From: Natronolimnohabitans innermongolicus JCM 12255
Lineage (GTDB): Archaea > Halobacteriota > Halobacteria > Halobacteriales > Natrialbaceae
Length of the DNA stretch: 64,000 nt
NCBI RefSeq assembly: GCF_000337215.1
Contig: NZ_AOHZ01000075.1
Span: 2,371 to 66,370, forward strand
Direction of reading: 5' to 3'
Shown here piece by piece: positions 2,346 to 28,532 of this stretch (the stretch's first letter is position 1; the number at the start of each line of letters is the position of its first letter). The notes below the pieces were generated by a model, which saw nothing but the letters and a program-made list of their open reading frames with translations, was not told the origin of the DNA and ran no database searches. Position numbers and translations under genes: made by a program.

Positions 2346-2551
2346 GCCTGTTCGGCACCTGCGAAGACTGCAGCGAGTCGGCAAACCTCCGGTACAAGCC
2401 GGATATGTCCCACGACGCGCAGGCTCGCCCCTCGATCTGCAACCGCTGTCGCATTCGGCGCGAGGAACGGATGCTCGAGCAGGTCCAGGAGGAACGGCCT
2501 GTTCCGCCGCACGTCCCGTCGGTCCCGGAGGAGCGTGGTGACGGTGAGTGA
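2342..2551 (+). CDS. small zinc-ribbon protein
   Basis: A 69-residue protein with two metal-binding knuckles, CEDC near residue 7 and CNRC near residue 35, the usual arrangement of a treble-clef or ribbon zinc site. The C-terminal third is charged and proline-rich. It overlaps the preceding gene by ATGA, and its 3' end overlaps the integrase GTG start by 17 nt, so the three genes form one operon. The function is unknown; nucleic-acid binding is plausible from the fold alone. Confidence 0.65.
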   Translation: MSLFGTCEDCSESANLRYKPDMSHDAQARPSICNRCRIRREERMLEQVQEERPVPPHVPSVPEERGDGE

Positions 2552-3557
2552 GGATCTGCAACCGCTCACGCCGTCCGAGGGCGTCGATATGTTTCTCGAG
2601 CACCGGAAGCCGAGCGTCCGCGAGTCTTCGATGCAGAACGCACGGCACCGACTCTCGGTGTTCCTCGAGTGGTGTGAGGAAGCGGAGATCGACAACCTGA
2701 ACGATCTGACCGGACGCGAGCTATCGTTGTTCGTCAGCTGGCGTCGAGGCGACGTTGCCCCGATCACGTTGCAAAAGCAGCTGAGTAGCGTTCGGATGGC
2801 CCTGCGTTGGTGGGCCGATATCGAGGCCGTCGAGGATGGGCTCGCGGAGAAACTTCACGCGCCCGAGCTGCCGGACGGCGCCGAATCCCGCGAGGTGTTC
2901 CTCGAGGCCGACCGCGCGAAGCAGGCGCTTCGGTACTTCGACCGCCACCACTACGCCAGCCGCGATCACGCGCTTCTCGCGTTGATCTGGCGAACCGGGA
3001 TGCGCCGCGGTGCAGTGCGCGCACTCGACGTCGGGGATCTCGACGAAGATGAACAGGCGATTCGCGTCGAGCACCGACCTGACACCGAAACTCCGCTGAA
3101 GAACGGTGACAGCGGGAGTCGGTGGGTCTACCTCGGTCCGCGGTGGTTCCAGGTCCTCGACGATTACGTCACCAATCCCGACCGGAAGACCGTTGTCGAC
3201 GAGCACGGTCGCCGACCGCTGTTCACGACGCGACAGGGAACGCGACCGACCGGCCACTCGATCTACAAGTGGATCATTCGCGCGTTGCACCCGTGTACGT
3301 ACGCGGAGTGCCCGCACGATCGGACGCCGTCCGACTGCGAAGCACGGGGCGGAAACTCGAGTCCGTCGCGATGCCCGTCTGCGCGATCGCCGCACGCGGT
3401 CCGTCGCGGAGCGATCACGAACCACCTGAACGAGGAAACCGCCCCTGAGACGGTTAGCGAACGGATGGACGTCTCGCTCGAGGTGCTGTACGAGCACTAC
3501 GACGCGAGAACTGAACGAGAGAAGATGACGGTCCGACGCCAGGACGTTCCGGAGTAA
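2535..3557 (+). CDS. tyrosine recombinase / integrase (XerC/D-like, haloarchaeal element type)
   Basis: A 340-residue site-specific recombinase. Residues about 15-105 are the SAM-like core-binding domain (VRESSMQNARHRLSVFLEW). The catalytic domain shows the active-site set: Arg157 in TGMRRGA, His287 and Arg290 in SPHAVRRG, and the nucleophile Tyr319 or Tyr322 in YEHYDARTE. Between the first Arg and the HxxR box is a Cys/His-rich insert (CTYAEC ... DCEARG ... RCPS), a feature I associate with haloarchaeal integrases and probably zinc-binding. All catalytic residues are present, so it may be active. Two tRNA 3'-end copies follow directly downstream, as expected for an integrase at the end of a tRNA-targeted element. 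Confidence 0.92.
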   Translation: MVTVSEDLQPLTPSEGVDMFLEHRKPSVRESSMQNARHRLSVFLEWCEEAEIDNLNDLTGRELSLFVSWRRGDVAPITLQKQLSSVRMALRWWADIEAVEDGLAEKLHAPELPDGAESREVFLEADRAKQALRYFDRHHYASRDHALLALIWRTGMRRGAVRALDVGDLDEDEQAIRVEHRPDTETPLKNGDSGSRWVYLGPRWFQVLDDYVTNPDRKTVVDEHGRRPLFTTRQGTRPTGHSIYKWIIRALHPCTYAECPHDRTPSDCEARGGNSSPSRCPSARSPHAVRRGAITNHLNEETAPETVSERMDVSLEVLYEHYDARTEREKMTVRRQDVPE

Positions 3558-24351: not shown

Positions 24352-24864
24352 TCAGGGATCGGCGAGCGAACGGTCGTAGACGTGCTCCTCGAGTCCGTCG
24401 CCCAGATCCGACGGTCTCGTCTCGAGGCGGTCGAACCCGGCCGATTCGTAGAACGAGACGCCCACCTCGTTGGCCGCGAGGACGACCGCTCGGAGCCGAT
24501 CACACGGTGGTCGAAGCTCGGCCTCGACGCGCTCGAGGAGCGCCGTTCCGGCGCCGTCGCCCCATCGATCAGGGCGAACGTACAGACGAGACAACAGGGC
24601 CGTTCCGCCGCCGTCGAGGCGGCCGGCGTGGGCGAATCCCGCTCCCTCGTCGTTCGCGGTCGCGAGCAGGAACGCGGCGCCGTCCCGCGTTCTCGCGTCG
24701 TCGATCGACGCCTCGAGGTCGTCGGCGGCGTACCAGTCGGAAACCGTCTCGTCGACCGTCTCCGGACCGAGGAGGTCGTCGTAGGCGGCGTGCCAACTCT
24801 CGCGAGCGACCTCGCGGACGGTCGCTGCGTCGGCCGGCGTCGCATAACGGACTGTCCAGTCCAT
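24352..24864 (-). CDS. GNAT family N-acetyltransferase
   Basis: A 170-residue GCN5-type acetyltransferase. It starts MDWTVRYATPADAATVREVARESW, continues with HAAYDDLLGPETVDETVSDWY, and has the acetyl-CoA-binding motif RPDRWGDGAGTALLERVEAEL and the C-terminal VGVSFYESAGFDRLE. The substrate is unknown. Its closest relative in the window is the GNAT at 27888-28532, which shares ASWHAAYDD[LI]LG; the two flank the propeller-nuclease gene. Confidence 0.9.
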   Translation of the reverse strand: MDWTVRYATPADAATVREVARESWHAAYDDLLGPETVDETVSDWYAADDLEASIDDARTRDGAAFLLATANDEGAGFAHAGRLDGGGTALLSRLYVRPDRWGDGAGTALLERVEAELRPPCDRLRAVVLAANEVGVSFYESAGFDRLETRPSDLGDGLEEHVYDRSLADP

Positions 24865-24997: not shown

Positions 24998-27694
24998 TCA
25001 CCGGGGTGGAACGAGCGGCGACTGATTTAACAGGTTCACCAATCGGGTTCCATCGACGAGTTCGAGTCGGTCGCCGTACGTTCGGGCCTCGTCGCGTGCC
25101 GGTTGGGTAAACGAGGAACTCGTGACGACGATGGCCCTGTCGAAGCCGCGCGGTAAGAGTCCCCCCGTTTCGCGGACGACGCCGTTGCTGACCGTGTTGT
25201 CGGCCGCGTAGTTCTTGACCTGAATGGCGATCCGTTCTCGTCCATTTTCCGCGACGACGTCGATGCCCATGTCGCCCGTCTGCTTTTCGACGACGGTTCG
25301 GTAGCCCATCTCCGCCCAGAGGTCGCCGATCAGCACCTCGAAGTCGGCCCAGTGAAACGAGTGGAGATCGGCGGTCGTCCAGATGGCCTCCTCCATCCGG
25401 GAGATTCGGTTCACGTGTTCCGCGAGGATCGACGAGTCCCGTTGCTCGAGCGCTCGCCGAACCGCGGCTCGGAGCGTTCCGTCGTCGATTCCAGTGTACT
25501 CCGGTCGGTTTCGATCCCGGAACGAGTCAACCGCTCGCACCTGCTCCTGGAGGGTTTCGCACGCACGTACCGTCTCGGAGAGGCGCCGCGGCGGTTCCCG
25601 TCGGTTCCGAACGGCGTCGGCGAGTTGCTCCCAGCAGTCGTCGGTTTCGACGCGCCCCCACTCGTCGACGCGAGCGAGTCGCTCGACGAGTTCGGTAGTC
25701 CTCTCACAGCGACTGAGTTCGGCCGTCACGTCGGCGTCGTCGTCGGTCTCGGCCACCGCGAGCGACTCGAGTTGCGATCGCAACGCGGCCACGCCCGGAG
25801 CGCCGGCGTAGGGGCCGAGGTCCTGAAGCAGGTCATCACGCTCTTCGGCCCGCTCGAGCGTTTCGGCGGCGGTCTGAAGCTGTTCCCGACGGGTGACGAT
25901 CTCGGCGGTCGATCCCGTTCGAACCTCGTCTCGAGCGGCGGCTATCACGTCTACGATGGGGTCGGCGCGTACCGGCGTGTCGAGTCGTTCGTGCCGCGTC
26001 TCGACCCGCTCTGCCCTGTCGAGGAGGTTCTCGTAGGCGTCGAGGGTGTTCTCGAACCGCTCGAGCGTCGCTTCGATTTCGTCGAACGGCGCGTCGGCAC
26101 TCGGTCGGACGTTCTCGGGGAGCGTTTCGAGGCCGGTCGTCCCGCCGTCCAGCCTCACTGCCAACTCGTCACAGCGCGACTCGAGTCGGTCGAACGATTC
26201 GGCGGCTCGCGTTCGTCGACGGCTGTCGTACGCGCGTTTCCCGGCGTAGCCGGTTGCGCCGGCGACGACGCCGAGACCGGTGCCACCGACGAGGAGGTCC
26301 GCCCCGTTCTGCCGTCGTTCGGCGCTCTCGAGGGCCTCCTCCGCTCGGTCGTACTCGCCCGCTTCGAGAGATGCTCGCGCGTCGTCCACCTTTCCCGGCT
26401 TGCCGAAGTACGCCGCCAGCGTCGCCGACAGCCGACCGAACGTCCCCTGCTCGTCGACTTCCTCGATCCGGCTACCGACGGCCGCTCGCCGACCGACGTA
26501 GGACGTGATCTCGGTTCGATCGGCGACGTAGAATCGATCCGTTCCGATCGCCCAGCCGTCGATCGTCGTCGCGAGCGCGTGCTCACCGAGTCGATCCCCC
26601 GTCGCCGGATCGAGGAAGACGAGTTCGTCCCCGTCGACCACGGCGACCAGCAGTCCGTCGAGGATCCCGGCGCGCCAGACCGGACCGAGGTCCGCGCTCC
26701 AGACGATCGACTCGCGCTCGAGATCGATCGCGGTGAGCCCGCCGACCGAACTCACGTACCAGTTGTCCGCCCGGGTAAACGCCGCCGTCGCGGTCCCCTC
26801 GAGCGTCGTCTCGGCGATCGAGAACCGGTCGCGTCCGTCGGCCGGATCGTACGCCGAGACGGAACCCTCGAACTCGGGGAGCAACACGGTATCGTCGACG
26901 ATCGACGGGAAGTCGAAGTTGCCCGCCGGCGTTCGTTCCCAGCGGAGCGCGCCCGACTCGAGGTTCCGACACTGCAGCGTCCGCGGCTCGATCGTCAACT
27001 CGAACTCCGGGAAGCCCGACCACGCTCCGTTCATGACGTAGAACTGGCCGTTGTCGCGGTCGACGACGGGCGCGTAGAACCCGGATCCGTGCGCTTCCCA
27101 CTCCTTTCGCCCCGTCTCGCGGTCGAACGCCTCGACGGCGCCGCCGTCGTCATCGGTTCGGTGCCGATAGTCCCCCTCGTAGGTGATCGAACTCACGAGA
27201 AACAGGTCCTCGCCTACCGACGCCCGAGTCGGGTGTCGCCCCGCCGTCTCCCGGCGCCACCGTTCGCTGCCGTCGTCTCTCGAAACGGCGAACACCGTCT
27301 CCGTGCCGGAAATCACCAGCGTCTCCTCGAGAACGGCGGGCTGACTGAGTTGCTCGTCGTAGCCGGCGAGCCACTCGACCGATCCCGTCTCCGCGTCGAC
27401 GGCGGCGAGAAATGCGTCGTACTCGCCGAACCCCGCCGACTCCCTGTTGTGAACGGTATAGATCGTCGATCCGGCGACGGTCATGCGCTGACTACCTGGA
27501 ACAGTCTCTCCGGAGACGTTCCAGTCCGACGGCGGGTCGGCGATGATATTCGCAGTCCACTCCGCGACCGGCGGAAGGCCGTACGCCGCCGCGGCGTCGT
27601 CCGGCGCTCCCCGAACGCGGTCCATCCCGGTCGCGGCGCCGACCACGCCGAGCGTCGCCGCCCCACCTGTCAGAAGAAAATCCCGTCGAAACAT
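24998..27694 (-). CDS. exported beta-propeller, membrane helix, coiled coil and Mrr restriction endonuclease fusion
   Basis: An 898-residue protein from MFRRDFLLTGGAATLGVVGA, a twin-Arg-like signal. Residues about 40-405 are a PQQ-type propeller with repeats such as AAVDAETGSVEW, FAVSRDDGSERW and EAFDRETGRKEW. Residues 464-484 (GADLLVGGTGLGVVAGATGYA) form a hydrophobic segment followed by KRAYDSRRRTR, which should keep the rest inside the cell. Residues 490-770 are helical and acidic. Residues 778-898 are an Mrr-type nuclease: FHWADFEVLIGDLW, GYRTVVEKQTGDMGIDVV with catalytic Asp812, and IQVKNY with Gln825 and Lys827. The active site looks complete. The promoter and a palindrome directly before 27694 support this start rather than an upstream ATG. 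The role is unknown; a sensor-linked defence or DNA-uptake nuclease is inferred. Confidence 0.85.
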   Translation of the reverse strand: MFRRDFLLTGGAATLGVVGAATGMDRVRGAPDDAAAAYGLPPVAEWTANIIADPPSDWNVSGETVPGSQRMTVAGSTIYTVHNRESAGFGEYDAFLAAVDAETGSVEWLAGYDEQLSQPAVLEETLVISGTETVFAVSRDDGSERWRRETAGRHPTRASVGEDLFLVSSITYEGDYRHRTDDDGGAVEAFDRETGRKEWEAHGSGFYAPVVDRDNGQFYVMNGAWSGFPEFELTIEPRTLQCRNLESGALRWERTPAGNFDFPSIVDDTVLLPEFEGSVSAYDPADGRDRFSIAETTLEGTATAAFTRADNWYVSSVGGLTAIDLERESIVWSADLGPVWRAGILDGLLVAVVDGDELVFLDPATGDRLGEHALATTIDGWAIGTDRFYVADRTEITSYVGRRAAVGSRIEEVDEQGTFGRLSATLAAYFGKPGKVDDARASLEAGEYDRAEEALESAERRQNGADLLVGGTGLGVVAGATGYAGKRAYDSRRRTRAAESFDRLESRCDELAVRLDGGTTGLETLPENVRPSADAPFDEIEATLERFENTLDAYENLLDRAERVETRHERLDTPVRADPIVDVIAAARDEVRTGSTAEIVTRREQLQTAAETLERAEERDDLLQDLGPYAGAPGVAALRSQLESLAVAETDDDADVTAELSRCERTTELVERLARVDEWGRVETDDCWEQLADAVRNRREPPRRLSETVRACETLQEQVRAVDSFRDRNRPEYTGIDDGTLRAAVRRALEQRDSSILAEHVNRISRMEEAIWTTADLHSFHWADFEVLIGDLWAEMGYRTVVEKQTGDMGIDVVAENGRERIAIQVKNYAADNTVSNGVVRETGGLLPRGFDRAIVVTSSSFTQPARDEARTYGDRLELVDGTRLVNLLNQSPLVPPR

Positions 27695-27697
27695 ACG

Positions 27698-27731
27698 CTC
27701 TTCGCGAAGAGAGACTCTTCGCGAGATTAAA
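27698..27731 (-). promoter_or_regulatory. promoter and operator palindrome of the propeller-nuclease gene
   Basis: On the minus strand a TTTAAT box (27726-27731) is followed by CTCGCGAAGAG and a perfect 14-bp palindrome CTCTTCGCGAAGAG (27698-27711) ending three bases before the ATG. CTCTTCGCGA is repeated 17 bp apart. A site over the transcription start would suit repression. Confidence 0.5.
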
Positions 27732-27887: not shown

Positions 27888-28532
27888 CTACCGGTTTGCG
27901 TCCGCGATCGGTTTCTCGTAGACGTACTCTTCGAGTCCCGCGGCCAGCCCGTTCGGCCGCCTCGAAACGGGGTCGAACCCCCGCGATTCGGCGAACGAGC
28001 GGCCGCCGTCGTTGTCCGCGAGGACGGCCAGTCGGAGTCGATCGAACGACCCCCGAAGCTCGTCCTCGAGGGCGGTCACGAGCGCCGTTCCGGTGCCGTC
28101 GCGCCAGACGTCCGGACTGACGTGGAGGCGCGCGAGGTAGGCGACCGAATCGTCCTCCGGCCACGGTATCGCGTGGACGAATCCGGCGCACTCGCGGTCG
28201 AACTCGGTGCGGTCCGCGTCGGGTCGTCCGCCGTCGGTCCTGGAGTTCGCTTCGGCGTTCACGGCGGCGCTTGGTCCGTCGACGGTCGTCTCCCTGGTGT
28301 GCGTCCCGCGGTCCGCGGTTCGCGGCTCGGCGACGAGAAAAACAGCATCGGCGCGGTCCGTCGTCCCCGCTATCGCCGACTCGAGGTCGCCGAGTGCGTA
28401 CCACTCGTCGACGACGTCGTCGACCCGCTCGGCGCCGAGAATGTCGTCGTAGGCGGCGTGCCAGCTGGCGCGGGCGGTCTCGTGAATCGCCCAGACGTCC
28501 TCGAGCGTCGCCGGCCGCACGTCTCGCGTCAC
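27888..28532 (-). CDS. GNAT family N-acetyltransferase, paralogue with acidic insert
   Basis: A 214-residue acetyltransferase related to the gene at 24352-24864: it shares ASWHAAYDDILGAERVDDVVDEWY and the CoA motif SPDVWRDGTGTALVTALEDEL, and ends GRSFAESRGFDPV. It carries an insert of about 40 polar residues (near 80-115, including PSAAVNAEANSRTDGG) missing from the shorter one. The propeller-nuclease lies between the two, on the same strand. Confidence 0.88.
   Translation of the reverse strand: MTRDVRPATLEDVWAIHETARASWHAAYDDILGAERVDDVVDEWYALGDLESAIAGTTDRADAVFLVAEPRTADRGTHTRETTVDGPSAAVNAEANSRTDGGRPDADRTEFDRECAGFVHAIPWPEDDSVAYLARLHVSPDVWRDGTGTALVTALEDELRGSFDRLRLAVLADNDGGRSFAESRGFDPVSRRPNGLAAGLEEYVYEKPIADANR

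Follow-up and report, generated by a model that had tools for sequence, protein, structure and literature searches.

Here, we describe a haloarchaeal gene whose product, P0001, joins a Tat-type export signal, a BamB/PQQ-like beta-propeller, a conserved polar-free segment with a positively charged flank, a mostly helical region and an Mrr nuclease domain with its active-site residues in one chain. We propose that P0001 is a single-chain membrane-anchored defence-type nuclease, which would cut foreign DNA at the membrane, and regard this proposal as an even call. The gene is located in the window, i.e., the whole stretch of 64,000 nucleotides from Natronolimnohabitans innermongolicus JCM 12255 that was analysed, which contains the following features (residue numbers are those of P0001):

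24998..27694, minus strand: complete fusion gene P0001, 898 aa (ORF and Pfam)
27605..27694, minus strand: Tat-type signal peptide, residues 1–30, beginning MFRRDFLLTGGAATLGVVGAATG (RR and L7 invariant in the aligned full-length relatives)
26495..27583, minus strand: BamB/PQQ-like beta-propeller, residues ~38–400 (Pfam PQQ_2; AF2 strands 43–400; Foldseek to BamB)
26306..26491, minus strand: helical hairpin linking the propeller to the hydrophobic segment, residues 402–463 (AF2 helices 402–470; conserved A439 and Y448)
26240..26296, minus strand: polar-free Gly/Ala-rich segment LLVGGTGLGVVAGATGYAG, residues 467–485, probable single membrane helix (sequence windows; low-confidence in AF2)
26195..26239, minus strand: positive flank KRAYDSRRRTRAAES, residues 486–500 (net +4)
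25364..26239, minus strand: mostly helical region, residues 486–777 (AF2 helices 492–778; alignment with relatives)
25028..25363, minus strand: Mrr_cat nuclease domain, residues 778–889, with E786, D812, Q825 and K827 (Pfam E = 4e-24; residues invariant or conservatively kept)
24352..24864, minus strand: GNAT acetyltransferase flanking the fusion gene (Pfam)
27888..28532, minus strand: paralogous GNAT acetyltransferase on the other flank (Pfam; adjoins its partner in the congener G001)
27698..27711, no strand: perfect 14-bp palindrome CTCTTCGCGAAGAG, preceded by a TATA-like TTTAAT and followed by the start codon, not shared across the family

The gene is a single intact open reading frame that starts with ATG and contains neither an internal stop nor a frameshift. 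A frameshifted or merged reading frame, such as an assembly merge, was excluded by the uniform GC3 over the frame (0.75–0.91) and by collinear fusions in nine other haloarchaeal genomes. Thus, the claim of a first-pass annotation, made from the sequence alone, that this is one genuine propeller-Mrr fusion holds, and most of its domain assignments could be reproduced. The twin-arginine export signal it named corresponds to the Tat motif RRDFLL at residues 3–8, of which the RR and the following L are invariant across the aligned full-length set, despite a sequence identity of only 20–30%. The propeller, placed there up to about residue 405, is represented by a PQQ_2 (PF13360) match at residues 66–290 (E = 6e-21, 75.6 bits vs. 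a cut-off of 27.6) and by the AF2 strands between residues 43 and 400, and the AF2 propeller matches BamB in Foldseek with E ~1e-17. The nearest matches of the propeller are the extracytoplasmic proteins BamB, YxaL and tetrathionate hydrolase. BamB/PQQ-type propellers are usually extracytoplasmic. The suggested stretch of about 280 helical residues amounts to about 290 mostly helical residues (AF2 helices 492–778). The Mrr_cat domain (PF04471) matches residues 778–889 with E = 4e-24 and 85.3 bits, compared to a curated cut-off of 21, and the active-site pattern E, D, (Q/E)xK is retained in every full-length member; Asp812, Gln825 and Lys827 are in place with the numbering given before, and E786 is invariant, too. 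A comparison of the helical-Mrr part with PDB sequences yielded no credible relative. By its domain matches, P0001 is assigned to both the Mrr nuclease family and the BamB-like propeller family.

Whole-genome searches revealed that the order of Tat signal, propeller, hairpin, polar-free segment, helical region and Mrr domain is shared by relatives at 20–30% identity in nine other haloarchaeal genomes, namely G041 (938 aa), G030 (Natronococcus occultus SP4, 953 aa), G480 (Halorientalis persicus, 938 aa), G273, G250, G370, G408, G459 and G529. The fusion shows a patchy distribution, being present in about 10 of the 441 genomes searched from three families, each time in a different genus. The relatives from G408, G459, G480 and G529 were found with profiles that had been built without them; a contig scan with a narrow pattern gave one full-length relative, and the whole-genome searches gave more. 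No additional full-length member was present in a phylum-wide draw, nor did a scan of IMG/VR with query A2 return a relative, so that a viral origin is unsupported, and the Mrr tree did not separate one origin of the propeller fusion from several. Absence of the fusion in close relatives, which had been named beforehand as a finding that would speak against it, applies to the sole congener sampled, which is without the whole gene; the fusion is retained in haloarchaea that are less closely related. In G273, G250, G370 and G459, the relatives end with a DnaJ domain, mostly after a Cys-rich ribbon:

L096:7701-10775, propeller-Mrr protein with terminal DnaJ domain
L097:8002-11028, propeller-Mrr protein with terminal DnaJ domain
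L099:9625-12765, minus strand, propeller-Mrr protein with terminal DnaJ domain
L132:5125-8190, minus strand, propeller-Mrr protein with terminal DnaJ domain

The J-domains and Cys-rich ribbons of these four relatives fit a cytosolic C-terminal part, and the DnaJ ends also hint at an involvement of Hsp70.

The hydrophobic segment, which had been placed at residues 464–484, was found, with its boundaries shifted to 467–485. These 19 residues are free of D, E, K, R, H, N and Q and make up the longest polar-free stretch of P0001 besides the signal itself. As noted before, positive residues come next (KRAYDSRRRTR), and the flank of residues 486–500 has a net charge of +4, which is in the top 1% of the 15-mers of this acidic protein. 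Both properties recur among the nine distinct proteins that were compared. On a crude insertion scale, the segment after the hairpin ranks first or second among the membrane-helix windows of the chain in 9/9 proteins. Likewise, the 15 residues behind it carry a net charge of +2 to +5 in all nine, which is among the most positive values of otherwise negative chains. The segment is Gly/Ala-rich throughout, and its polar-free length is 18–22 residues in the subgroup of the window protein and exactly 15 in the other six proteins. It is only weakly hydrophobic, the crude insertion energies being positive in all nine proteins. Tat-dependent transmembrane (TM) segments have been described as combining low hydrophobicity with C-terminal positive charges (PMC5449189), and this sequence pattern is present in each of the nine. 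Described Tat membrane proteins mostly have one TM segment, located at either the N- or the C-terminus (PMC10924467). AF2 models of P0001 and of the G030 relative (mean pLDDT 69.6 and 69.0), which rest on shallow alignments of 6 and 10 rows, resolved the propeller and the Mrr fold in both cases and showed the segment as a low-confidence coil between the hairpin and the helical region (pLDDT ~30). Thus, the models do not bury the segment within a soluble domain, which had been named as an observation against a membrane helix, nor do they form a membrane helix. P0001 probably crosses the membrane once, at residues 467–485; we call this crossing probable only, because the segment is weakly hydrophobic and unstructured in the two AlphaFold models. 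The earlier suggestion that the protein spans the membrane with the nuclease inside gains from the conserved polar-free segment and its positive flank in 9/9 proteins, which make a single crossing likely, and also from the J-domains and Cys-rich ribbons, from exchanges of TM modules and from a split version of the protein.

In these exchanges, the helical-Mrr part stays and the module ahead of it changes. The propeller is replaced by a TM-ectodomain-TM module in L103 and L109, by polytopic modules in L033 and L150 and by two TMs in L108; HhH DNA-binding domains precede the helical-Mrr part in L100 and L134, and soluble helical parts in L098 and L104. The split version, found in G280 and G374, consists of a Tat-propeller protein and a helical-Mrr protein encoded in one gene cluster, and the clusters (L105 and L106) have matching neighbours in the two genomes. 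Here, the Tat-propeller protein ends with a strong C-terminal TM (G374, L106:11255-12865), and the Mrr protein has a TM of its own (G280, L105:4631-5806). These independent split arrangements appear to tie an outside propeller to an inside Mrr domain. Several further observations were made on the exchanged modules. The proteins L103:9141-11186 and L109:8176-10221 (both minus strand) are 88% identical across two genera, and another Mrr gene adjoins the helical-Mrr gene in divergent orientation. On plasmids of Halomicrobium mukohataei (L104) and Halarchaeum (L179), a soluble helical-Mrr gene is located among Ser/Thr kinase genes, which include kinase-propeller fusions in L104; HEAT/PDS5-like, chaperonin and AAA genes are also present in these neighbourhoods, which possibly represent another conflict system. 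A haloarchaeal type with reversed order, consisting of an N-terminal Mrr domain, two to three TM segments, propeller-like repeats and TPR-like helices, forms a distinct, well-supported branch of the Mrr tree:

L035:2725-4917, minus strand, reversed-order Mrr-TM-propeller-like protein
L036:3074-5299, minus strand, reversed-order Mrr-TM-propeller-like protein
L037:2482-4575, minus strand, reversed-order Mrr-TM-propeller-like protein
L038:5681-7666, minus strand, reversed-order Mrr-TM-propeller-like protein

With regard to genomic context, the two GNAT genes on either side of the fusion gene are in tandem in G001, 132 bp apart, which represents an empty site. This suggests that the fusion gene was either inserted in the window genome or lost in G001. 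Its GC content equals that of the surroundings, which argues against a recent low-GC arrival. The window copy has no defence or conjugation genes as neighbours, and no Rfam element was found near the fusion gene. A VirB4-like ATPase is encoded within 10 kb of the fusion in three of the ten loci (G250, G408 and G030), accompanied by a relaxase and VirD4 at G250, by TrbL at G408 and by an integrase at G030; a post hoc placement calculation gave a chance of ~4e-4 for such a neighbour in at least three of ten loci. The G273 copy belongs to a defence island, which also encodes TmtA, two DUF1156 methylases and a KAP ATPase that resembles PifA. The G370 copy resides on a 375-kb plasmid and is annotated only as 'restriction endonuclease'. 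A cassette of 6.2 kb with 93% identity, which comprises a PLD-domain gene, the fusion gene and a gene for a 604-aa protein, is common to G041 and G480, which belong to two families. The search for other propeller-Mrr chains and their neighbourhoods that the first-pass annotation had proposed led to nine further genomes, with mobile or defence contexts at several of them. In H. persicus (G480), a small second Mrr gene (L166:7612-9572, minus strand) and a PLD-domain gene are located directly beside the propeller-Mrr gene. Contigs C4 and C5 of G459 (L132 and L133) share 10,210 identical bp, inverted at the contig starts and including the fusion gene, which is either a terminal repeat or an assembly effect. 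Roughly 21 kb away from the fusion gene, the gene at 2535-3557 of the window is 43% identical to an ORF of G041 (L031:16983-18128) that resembles a putative tyrosine recombinase/integrase.

A perfect palindrome over the promoter had been taken as a sign of tight repression. The palindrome exists: it is located in the core promoter region just downstream of the TATA-like TTTAAT and belongs to a repeat that can form a hairpin (z = -2.6). The window contains 15 perfect palindromes with a length of 14 bp or more, the sequence in question has a single site in the genome, and no palindrome of at least 14 bp was found upstream of eight relatives. It therefore carries little weight for regulation, since such palindromes are common in the window and this one is unique in the genome and unconserved, so that the claim of tight repression is not supported. 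A function as a regulon operator was rejected on account of the single genomic occurrence and the absence in relatives.

According to the mechanism that we propose, the Tat pathway would export the folded propeller, the Gly-rich segment would halt the transfer and span the membrane, and the parts C-terminal to it, both helical and Mrr, would remain in the cytoplasm. Membrane anchoring would keep the nuclease away from the chromosome, and the Mrr domain would cut virus genomes, or DNA that enters via cell contact, at the point of entry. The outer propeller might recognise a surface event or a partner that positions or activates the enzyme. The best reading of our analysis is a putative defence or exclusion nuclease, which would work in a SNIPE-like manner but stand outside the SNIPE family. 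Defence is suggested because of the patchy distribution, the mobile and defence contexts, the kept Mrr residues and the precedent of SNIPE. Somewhat more tentatively, at just short of an even call, we suggest that P0001 is a Tat-inserted archaeal single-chain transmembrane receptor-nuclease, whose folded propeller faces the exterior, whose Gly-rich stop-transfer helix crosses the membrane once and whose Mrr effector, of about 410 residues, is located in the cytoplasm. If true, this would be a Tat topology that is so far unreported, and P0001 would head an archaeal family that swaps membrane or DNA-sensing modules onto one helical-Mrr effector.

The same domain anatomy would fit receptor-triggered self-killing by abortive infection: on sensing an attached virus or a damaged envelope, the propeller would cause the Mrr domain to cut the DNA of the cell itself instead of incoming DNA. 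In one study, direct immunity was found for 7 of the 11 E. coli systems that contain a component for DNA binding or cleavage, so that the other 4 were abortive (PMC9519451), and a palindrome in the promoter might indicate that expression has to be controlled, though such palindromes are frequent in the window and this one is unconserved. Since the window copy has no adjacent antitoxin or partner gene and a SNIPE-like anchoring favours direct action, we consider self-killing unlikely. It is rather more doubtful that the protein serves entry exclusion or DNA processing at the mating junction and thereby protects the conjugative elements that carry its gene. The VirB4-like ATPases with relaxase, VirD4 and TrbL at three of ten loci and the integrase near one speak for such a role, but seven of the ten loci, including the window, are without such neighbours, and defence cargo aboard conjugative elements would look alike.

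Other explanations concern the location or activity of the domains. P0001 might be a soluble cytoplasmic protein without an export signal, in which residues 467–485 are a linker and the propeller and the Mrr domain act together in the cytosol. This would agree with a weakly hydrophobic segment that is a coil in AF2, with the cytoplasmic kinase-propeller proteins that adjoin soluble Mrr relatives and with an E. coli propeller-Mrr defence protein, for which an export signal is not described (PMC9519451). We judge it slightly less probable still than the conjugation-linked role, as the Tat motif is invariant in 9/9 distinct proteins, the propeller is nearest to extracytoplasmic ones and the Tat-propeller protein of the split version has a strong C-terminal TM. 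Export of the whole protein, which would then cut environmental DNA outside the cell or at its surface, would make use of the Tat signal and suit the J-domain subgroup, which is without a strong TM segment. It is nevertheless very improbable, because the J-domain and Cys-rich ribbon of four relatives require the cytosol and homologous helical-Mrr parts sit after real TM helices in other proteins. Hardly credible is an Mrr fold that serves as a DNA-binding or scaffold domain, like the NACHT-associated inactive REase domains (PF22722): this model also matches P0001 (E = 4e-6), but PF04471 scores far better, and E, D and (Q/E)xK are kept in all full-length members.

The proposed membrane-anchored nuclease would add to archaeal defence, which is little known beyond CRISPR and restriction (PMC12988326). 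Proteins of this kind carry the bare annotation 'restriction endonuclease'. If the proposal is true, they would correspond, in archaea, to DNA cutters anchored at the membrane such as SNIPE and Zorya, telling self from non-self by place and not by sequence, and P0001 would offer a clear test case for whether the Tat pathway is able to insert proteins whose C-terminal domain is large and cytoplasmic. SNIPE (PD-lambda-1) is a membrane-bound anti-phage nuclease of E. coli, whose anchor holds the nuclease away from the chromosome; upon TM removal, it becomes toxic (Saxton et al. 2026, PMC13190303). Like SNIPE, which has a variable N-terminal membrane module, a middle part and a C-terminal nuclease in the cytoplasm, P0001 is a single chain that ends in a nuclease, which is predicted to be anchored at the membrane on the cytoplasmic side. 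SNIPE, however, combines a short N-terminal region with DUF4041 and a GIY-YIG nuclease, whereas P0001 has an Mrr domain and a propeller of about 370 residues with a Tat signal for export; neither DUF4041 nor GIY-YIG had a Pfam match in P0001 or its relatives. In Zorya type I, ZorAB acts as the sensor and ZorD is a helicase with an Mrr-like nuclease (PMC11890865). As is proposed for P0001, sensing at the membrane or envelope is coupled to an Mrr-like nuclease, and the Mrr part of P0001 matches ZorD, at its C-terminal Mrr end only. Zorya comprises four proteins with a MotAB-like motor and peptidoglycan binding, whereas P0001 is a single chain, and no ZorA/ZorB motor or ZorD helicase genes are located beside P0001, which is flanked by the two GNAT genes. 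Peptidoglycan is not known from haloarchaea. Mrr-family type IV modification-dependent restriction enzymes (PF04471; PADLOC mREase_IV, PDC-S02) share the nuclease domain and active-site residues with P0001 but have no counterpart to its propeller, Tat signal and segment. The matches are limited to its C-terminal part: the match to the PADLOC models begins no earlier than position 122 of the 390 model positions and otherwise covers the Mrr part only. BamB/PQQ-type propellers (PF13360) resemble the N-terminal half in fold and sequence, whereas BamB is an outer-membrane assembly lipoprotein and P0001 an archaeal propeller joined to a nuclease. An E. coli anti-phage protein in which a 7-bladed propeller follows an N-terminal Mrr nuclease has been shown to defend (Vassallo et al. 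2022, PMC9519451) and likewise holds Mrr and a beta-propeller in one chain. In this protein, the Mrr domain comes first, and a Tat signal or TM is not described in the available text of the report (PMC9519451), whereas in P0001 the propeller comes first and the Mrr domain last. Judged from its sequence features, P0001 is neither SNIPE, nor Zorya, nor the E. coli propeller-Mrr protein. The first-pass annotation had stated that the architecture is unknown from described defence systems. This stands for the exact combination of a Tat-exported propeller, a TM, a helical region and a C-terminal Mrr domain, which was not found among described defence systems; it does not stand for the general kind, given the E. 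coli propeller-Mrr protein (PMC9519451) and SNIPE (PMC13190303). Propeller-Mrr defence proteins as a category are already known from E. coli, and the domain order and Tat export of P0001 are a variation on it.
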